Source: Pirellulales bacterium (GTDB lineage: Bacteria > Planctomycetota > Planctomycetia > Pirellulales > JAIMBC01). Taken from it: 32,852 nucleotides of DNA. The notes beneath the pieces are model-generated. The model was not told where the DNA came from, made no database searches, and saw only the letters and a program-made list of their open reading frames with translations. A program made the translations under genes and the position numbers. Shown piece by piece: positions 19,626 through 30,113 of this stretch. The first letter of the stretch is position 1, and the number at the start of each line of letters is the position of its first letter. The DNA lies in assembly GCA_023511675.1 (NCBI GenBank), contig JAIMBC010000027.1:1-32852 (forward strand). The letters are read 5' to 3'.

Positions 19626-21131
19626 ATGGAACTGGTACCTTGGGACGAGCACAACCGTTCGCTGGTGGAGTGCATCCGGCCGGCCGGCTGGCAGAACCCC
19701 GTCCCGAGCGGCCGCTACAATCTGGTGGCCATTGGAGGCGGGACGGCGGGGTTGGTGGCCGCCATCGGTGCGGCATCCCTCGGCGGCCGAGCGGCTCTGG
19801 TCGAGCGGCACTTGCTGGGCGGCGACTGCCTCAATTACGGCTGCGTGCCCAGCAAGGCGCTGCTGCGTTGCGCCCGCGCGTGCCACGATGCCCGCCAGGC
19901 ACATCTCTACGGCTGCTACCCCTTGCAGGCTGAAGCAGACTTCTCCCGCATCATGGAACGCATGCGCCGGCTGCGTGCCGGCATCGCCAGACATGATGCG
20001 GCATAGCGGTTGCGAGCGCTGGGTGTCGATGTGTACTTCGGCGTGGGGCGCTTCTGCGGCCCGCGCGCGCTGGAGGTAGACGGGCAGCGGCTCGAGTTCC
20101 ACCGTGCGGTGATCGCCACGGGCAGCCGGCCGCTGATTCCGCCACTAGCGGGGCTGGAGGAGACCGGCTACCTCACCAACGAGACGGTGTTCTCTCTGGA
20201 GCGGCTGCCCAGCAGCCTGATCGTGCTGGGCGGCGGACCGATCGGCTGCGAGTTGGGACAGGCGTTCCGCCGCTTTGGCTGCGAGGTGCATGTGGTGTCG
20301 CGCGGCGAACGTCTGCTGCGGCGTGAGGAGCCCGAGGCTTCAGCGCTGGTGGAGGCGCAATTTGCCAGGGAGGGGATCCACCTGCATCTGGGCTGGCAGC
20401 CGGTGCGGGCGGAGCGGATGGGAAGCGCGCGTTCGTTGACCATCGAGCGGGAGGGCTCTCGGCAGAAACTGGTGGCGGAGGCGTTGCTGGTGGCGGTAGG
20501 GCGGCAGGCCAATCTGGAGGGGCTGCAGTGCGAGCGTGCCGGGGTGGCATGCGATGAACGGGGCGTGCGTGTGAACCAGCGGCTGCAAACCACCAATCCC
20601 GCCATCTACGCCGCCGGGGATGTGTGCAGCGAGCACAAGTTCACGCACGCGGCGGACGCCATGGCACGTGTCTGCCTGGAAAATGCCCTGTTTTTTCTGC
20701 GCCGGCGGGCTACCGCAGTGGTGATCCCGCATTGCACGTACACCGACCCCGAGGTGGCTCAGGTGGGTCTGACGGCTGCGCTGGCGCAGCAGCAAGGCAT
20801 ACGCATCGATACCTTCTACGAGACCTTCGATCGCGTCGACCGCGCCTACCTCGATGGAGAGACGGAGGGCCTGGCCATGCTGCACGTCCGCCGCGGCAGC
20901 GACCGTATCGTGGGTGCTACCCTGGTGGCGCGGCATGCCGGCGAAATGATCGGCGAGATCTGCCTGGCCCTCTCCCGCCGCCTGGGGCTGAAGATTCTCA
21001 GCCGCGTGATCCGCTGCTATCCTACACAGGCCGAGGTGTGGAAGCGCCTCTGCGACCAGTACCAGCGCACGCGGCTGACCCCACTGGCAGCACTTCTGGC
21101 CAGCCGCTGGCTGGCATGGCTCCGCCGCTGA
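19626..21131 (+). pseudogene. FAD-dependent NAD(P)-disulfide oxidoreductase (MerA/dihydrolipoamide dehydrogenase superfamily) interrupted by an in-frame TAG
   Basis: 19626-20006 carries the FAD motif ([13 protein letters not shown]) and redox-active [13 protein letters not shown]. The same frame continues 20007-21131 with ATGSRP, NAD motif (VLGGGPIGCELGQAFRRFG), AAGDVC and the C-terminal dimerisation domain. Only the TAG at 20004-20006 separates them. Confidence 0.8.
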
Positions 21132-28598: not shown

Positions 28599-30113
28599 TC
28601 AGCGGCACATCACGGGGCCGCCAATGAGGTCTCCCACCACGCGGGCCTTACTGACCACCGCGTCGGTAAGCGTCTCGTCCCGGCCGTGGTGGCGGTAGGT
28701 GAGCCGGTTATGGTCCAGGCCGAGCTGGTGCAGGATGGTGGCGTGCAGATCCTGCACGCTCACGCGGTTCTCGACGGAGCGGTAGCCCACCTCGTCGGTG
28801 GCGCCGTGGCAGTAGCCGCCCTTGAAGCCGCCGCCGGCCAACAGCAGGCTGAAGGCATTGCGGTTGTGATCTCGGCCCATGCCATTTTGCGAGACGGGCA
28901 GGCGGCCGAATTCACCGCTCCAGAGGACGATCGTCGTGTCGAGCAGGCCGCGCTGCTTGAGGTCGGCAATCAGCGCCGCAGCAGGCTGGTCGGTCTGGGC
29001 GCAGATCTTCTCGTTCTCGTCCTTGACGTTGGTATGGGCATCCCAGGGCTGGCCCACCGGCGGGTGGATCTGCACAAACCGCACCCCCAGTTCGATCAAA
29101 CGGCGCGCCATGAGACAACGCGTGCCATAGCCTGCCGTGGTGGGATTGTCGAGCCCGTACATGCGGCGTGTAGCCTCCGTCTCGCGGCCGAGATCCAAAG
29201 CTGCCCCGGCGGCAAGCTGCATCCGCGCCGCCAGTTCGAAATTGCGGATGCGCACCTCCAGCTCACTGTCGCTCCCGTAGGCACGCAGGTGCCGCTCGTT
29301 CAGCCGGCCGAGAAACTCCAGATCGGCCTGGCGCGCGGCGGGATCCTGGGGCACCGCCGGTTGCAGATTAAGCACGGGCGAACCCTGCGTGCTGAACTCG
29401 GTACCGCGATACAACGCCGGCAGCCAGCCGCTCTGCCACAGCAGGGTGCCGCTCGTGTTGTAACCGGCGGGATCCCGCAGCACCACATAGGCGGGCAGAT
29501 CCTGGTTCTCCGTCCCCAAGGCGTAACTGATCCACGAGCCTAACGCCGGCCGGCCCTGGAAGATCTTCCCCGTCGCCAGCAGCACCAGCGCCTCGGTGTG
29601 GTTGTTGTGCTCGCTATACATCGAGCGCACCAGACACAGCTCGTCCGCCACGCTGCCTAGGTGCGGAATCACCTCAGAAAGCAACATGCCGCACTCGCCG
29701 CACGGCAAGAACCGAAACGGCGTGCCTAACAGCACATTGCGCTCGCTGCCGAGCTGGAACATCTCCACCTTGATGCTGTGGCGCTTACCGTCTAGCCGGT
29801 TCAGTTCCGGCTTGGGATCAAACAGCTCCATCTGGCTCGGGCCGCCATTCTGCACGAACATCACCACGGCGTTCGCCCGAGCAGGAAAATGCCCGCTACG
29901 CGGCCGCAGGTCGAGCGGCCTGTTTTCCCCCTCGTGCGCCAGCAGGCCCTCTTCTTGCATGAGCAATGCAAGGGCTATTGTCCCCAGGCCAAAGCCCGAG
30001 AGTTCCAGCAAACGGCGCCGCGAAAGTACCGGCCCGCTTCGGCAAGACCATGCCCCACAACCAGAACCGTCCTCCGCGACACGCAATGTGGGCATGCGAT
30101 GCATGACAGGCAT
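28599..30113 (-). CDS. DUF1501 domain-containing (sulfatase-like) protein with Tat-like leader
   Basis: SRRRLLELSGFGLGTIALALL leader; ANAVVMFVQNGGPSQMELFDPKPELN; LYGLDN-type and GRDHN...AGGGFKGGYCHGATDEVGY motifs. Start 30113 or 30134, not 30464. Confidence 0.93.
   Translation of the reverse strand: MPVMHRMPTLRVAEDGSGCGAWSCRSGPVLSRRRLLELSGFGLGTIALALLMQEEGLLAHEGENRPLDLRPRSGHFPARANAVVMFVQNGGPSQMELFDPKPELNRLDGKRHSIKVEMFQLGSERNVLLGTPFRFLPCGECGMLLSEVIPHLGSVADELCLVRSMYSEHNNHTEALVLLATGKIFQGRPALGSWISYALGTENQDLPAYVVLRDPAGYNTSGTLLWQSGWLPALYRGTEFSTQGSPVLNLQPAVPQDPAARQADLEFLGRLNERHLRAYGSDSELEVRIRNFELAARMQLAAGAALDLGRETEATRRMYGLDNPTTAGYGTRCLMARRLIELGVRFVQIHPPVGQPWDAHTNVKDENEKICAQTDQPAAALIADLKQRGLLDTTIVLWSGEFGRLPVSQNGMGRDHNRNAFSLLLAGGGFKGGYCHGATDEVGYRSVENRVSVQDLHATILHQLGLDHNRLTYRHHGRDETLTDAVVSKARVVGDLIGGPVMCR

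Follow-up and report, generated by a model that had tools for sequence, protein, structure and literature searches.

A single in-frame TAG in an otherwise intact FAD-containing oxidoreductase gene of a Pirellulales genome is probably a recent nonsense mutation

Here we describe a gene for an FAD-containing oxidoreductase that is interrupted by one in-frame TAG in a Pirellulales genome, and argue that the stop probably arose through a recent nonsense mutation, in a gene that is dispensable. The locus would then be a very young pseudogene, or else a null allele at the level of the strain. The gene lies on the forward strand at positions 19626-21131 of the 32,852-nucleotide stretch of DNA that we analysed as a whole (the window). 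An earlier note on this DNA had described a single TAG in an otherwise intact flavoprotein frame, with FAD, NAD and dimerisation motifs in place, and had offered a recent pseudogene, an assembly error or readthrough as explanations. The layout is as it was described, and these three options are in our judgement the right ones.

Translation of the frame gives 126 codons, a TAG at codon 127 (20004-20006, forward strand), a further 374 codons and a terminal TGA (21129-21131); it contains no second internal stop and no frameshift. The pre-stop ORF (19626-20006, forward strand, 126 amino acids) carries an FAD-binding GGGTAG motif and the CLNYGC redox pair that is shared with the family, and contains neither the NAD-binding nor the dimerisation domain. 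Both are found in the post-stop ORF (20010-21131, forward strand), which is 373 amino acids long when opened at the TTG one codon 3' of the stop. The two halves match one family, NF004991 (NCBIfam PRK06370.1-3), a MerA/Lpd-like FAD-containing oxidoreductase family whose profile has a length of 509 and a curated cut-off of 620 bits. The pre-stop half scores 176 bits over profile positions 8-132 and the post-stop half 495 bits over positions 138-508, while the read-through protein (501 residues with the internal stop) scores 692 bits over positions 8-508, so that the cut-off is passed only on reading through and either half alone falls short. Pfam likewise matches FAD/NAD-binding domains and a dimerisation domain, and the start and end points of orthologues equal those of the window frame. 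Because its halves are consecutive segments of a single family profile, with both N-terminal motifs and the NAD-binding and dimerisation domains present, the frame is, as judged from its sequence, a genuine gene and not a chance open frame.

The product is predicted to be an FAD/NAD(P)H-dependent enzyme of the disulfide-reductase type. NF004991 belongs to the class I pyridine nucleotide-disulfide oxidoreductases, with MerA and Lpd as kin, and the window gene resembles the family along the full length of the profile when read through; mercuric reductases and dihydrolipoyl dehydrogenases are the solved structures that it matches best. As in MerA, a tyrosine (Tyr465) stands at the position of the catalytic histidine of Lpd. 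The gene differs from its orthologues by the one internal TAG and also at codon 463 (CGC, 21012-21014, forward strand), two residues before this tyrosine, which encodes arginine where 33 of 34 orthologues have histidine. We considered loss of a catalytic base through H463R and rejected it, as the residue aligns to the first, non-catalytic histidine of Lpd, which is alanine in MerA.

Orthologues were surveyed in 197 sampled genomes of the order Pirellulales at a match threshold of E<=1e-100. Seventy genomes, including the window's own, have a match (74 matches in total), and since the gene is thus carried by about 36% of the sampled genomes and is not universal, its loss appears to be tolerable and it is probably dispensable in the order. 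The internal stop occurs in the window genome only and in none of the 73 matches in the 69 other genomes, which indicates that it is a derived state of the window genome. All 73 are also unsplit, so that the two separately conserved ORFs for which the earlier note had suggested looking are absent from these relatives. The survey returned no other genome of the window's family or genus, the nearest orthologue having 61% identity, and a search of the window's own genome found no second NF004991 copy above the cut-off.

The composition of the stop column bears on which codon was changed. It had been proposed, from a family pattern, that glutamate is usual at this site and that the stop arose from GAG by one G>T change. 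However, the column is variable: in 34 aligned orthologues it contains alanine in nine, glutamine in eight, arginine and glutamate in four each, glycine and lysine in two each, and leucine, histidine, proline, threonine and aspartate once each. In the well-supported clade that surrounds the window protein (14 rows), glutamine is the commonest residue, encoded mostly by CAG. Since the column is variable and the near relatives mostly have CAG, a change from CAG to TAG is the most likely origin on this comparison; the proposed GAG to TAG change is possible but is not favoured. The favoured change is a C>T transition, and it agrees with the GC-to-AT mutation bias that one study reports in bacteria (PMC2936535).

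The decoding machinery suggests that such a stop would be read as a stop. The genome encodes RF1, with PET at the PxT position and GGQ, and RF2, with SPF and GGQ, the PxT and SPF motifs being those that we take to tell the two factors apart. The Rfam cut-off is passed by 45 tRNA genes, none of them with a CUA anticodon, and PylS was searched for in the genome and not found. The amber suppressor tRNA that the earlier note had named as a thing to look for is thus absent from the set, with the proviso that the genome is about 95% complete and the missing part could hold one. A tRNA-Sec gene that the general tRNA search had missed lies at L180:1501-1596 (minus strand, contig C137 of the same genome); it has the anticodon UCA and so reads UGA, and its presence suggests that the genome probably makes selenoproteins. 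Forms of tRNA-Sec that read UAG exist, and we rejected this one as a UAG reader because its anticodon is UCA and not CUA.

The use of TAG elsewhere in the genome was assessed in a sample of 423 kb, made up of about 390 kb taken in stretches together with the window. Long ORFs in this sample end in TAG more often than in either other stop (73 of 172; TGA 68, TAA 31; some of these ORFs are probably spurious), despite a GC content of 66%. In rpsR the S18 profile reaches its end at the very residue that precedes the TAG, and a TAG also lies between rplA and rplJ, between ptsH and ptsI, and between an Hsp70 gene and a Macro-domain gene. Taken with RF1 and the tRNA set, these natural boundaries indicate that TAG is a normal working stop in this genome. 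The frequency of TAG, along with its presence inside the reductase gene, might be read as a sign that the codon has been reassigned to an amino acid genome-wide, but this is contradicted by the presence of RF1, by the lack of a detected CUA tRNA or PylS, by a tRNA-Sec with UCA, by a conserved gene that ends at TAG where its profile ends, and by distinct adjacent genes that TAG separates. Reassignment, which the earlier note had already held to be unlikely, is extremely improbable and for practical purposes refuted by these sequence features. The window gene does share with UAG recoding systems (pyrrolysine, UAG-reading tRNA-Sec and TAG-reassigned codes) an in-frame TAG inside a conserved frame; the genome differs from them in that the searched decoding components are absent or standard, and the relatives differ in using normal sense codons at this site, which is variable.

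An enzyme might still be made if the TAG were leaky, with readthrough yielding a functional full-length protein. In favour of such a model, many residues are tolerated at the stop position and the sequence beyond it is undecayed. However, a suppressor tRNA was not found, the RNA 3' of the stop shows no unusual degree of structure (z = -0.33), the stop is shared by none of the relatives, and E. coli reporters gave a mean UAG readthrough of less than 1% at every temperature tested (PMC11126739), all of which leaves functional readthrough very improbable. The chance is equally slim that the gene is naturally split, with termination at the TAG followed by restart at the TTG at 20010 and the two fragments joining into a working enzyme. 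This TTG does open the 373-residue ORF one codon past the stop, and bacteria are known to reinitiate translation at short distances after termination (PMC6728339), but no Shine-Dalgarno-like element precedes the TTG (as judged by eye), no relative is split, the break falls inside the FAD domain, and either fragment alone is without essential parts. We therefore give little credence to the idea that either route keeps the enzyme in this lineage as a low-level or two-part product, and even taken jointly functional readthrough and a split product are improbable. A functional product is unlikely given the missing Shine-Dalgarno-like element, the unsplit relatives, the lack of unusual RNA structure and the low rate of UAG readthrough in E. 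coli reporters.

According to the reading that we favour, a recent nonsense substitution would have interrupted a single-copy, dispensable gene of the NF004991 family, the likeliest change being CAG to TAG. RF1 would then terminate translation at the TAG to release a 126-residue fragment, and because this fragment would be without the NAD-binding and dimerisation domains, the enzyme would be lost. The window gene is like recent single-nonsense bacterial pseudogenes in its one stop, otherwise intact frame, dispensability, intact orthologues and standard code; we observed no difference from them, although we infer, rather than observe, that the stop is of biological origin, that living cells carry it in their genome and that the enzyme product is inactive.

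Neither side of the stop bears the marks of long decay. GC content at the three codon positions is 0.71/0.54/0.80 before the stop and 0.73/0.49/0.82 after it, resembling other window genes. In the set of 34 orthologues the protein departs from conserved columns at 0 of 37 positions before the stop and 4 of 79 after it, and in a narrower set, at a looser threshold, at 0 of 39 and 8 of 99; these departures are inside the range of intact relatives and give no clear sign that constraint is relaxed beyond the stop. We rejected the protein's long end branch (0.64) as a sign of acceleration, since the path from the reductase to three outgroup genomes has 1.04 times the median length (LeuB, 1.45; CoaD, 0.72) and scarcity of close relatives explains the branch. 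With codon pattern and protein divergence both normal, any lesion appears to be recent. It should be noted that this lack of decay does not discriminate between a recent mutation, continued use of the product and an error of assembly, each of which it would fit.

Assembly error is the rival to be taken most seriously, because errors of this kind account for many of the pseudogenes with internal stops that public assemblies contain, and often for those in drafts (PMC11017572). The TAG would in that case be a consensus error, or the base of a minor strain taken into the consensus, and the gene would be intact in most cells of the species. The genome is a draft of 422 contigs, the rest of the gene shows normal divergence and no decay, and a second single-stop interruption was met within a small sample. 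Against this, the window genes that were scanned have no other recognised disruption and the reductase itself has no frameshift; on balance we regard such an error as possible but unlikely. The decoding machinery, the natural use of stops and the orthologues together favour either an ordinary null allele of recent origin or an error in the assembly. The reductase is one more interrupted gene and biologically minor; its use is in calibration, as a frame with perfect motifs and a single TAG here looks as if it were recoded.

Further interrupted frames were sought by screening the 423 kb on codon usage for same-frame stops flanked on both sides by coding-like sequence, and 18 of the best candidates outside the window were scanned with Pfam; the screen is coarse, since it relies on a weak codon bias and placed the reductase itself only sixteenth. 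In one of the 18 a domain, DUF7901, is crossed by the stop, which is a TAA. None of the 18 has a conserved domain crossed by TAG, and the TAG cases with domains on both sides proved to be distinct genes. This suggests that interrupted genes are occasional in the genome and not tied to TAG, and the second such gene, on this domain evidence, counts for a nonsense mutation in the reductase. The DUF7901 gene encodes a PEP-CTERM-like protein (L130:7515-8354, forward strand, contig C403 of the same genome), with its in-frame TAA at L130:7929. Two other candidates were set aside: the TAG in a second flavoprotein (G000:C379:36217-37638) is a natural gene end and not an interruption, and a same-frame TGA on the minus strand of the window at 28601 divides a DUF1501 gene from a cyclase-family gene.
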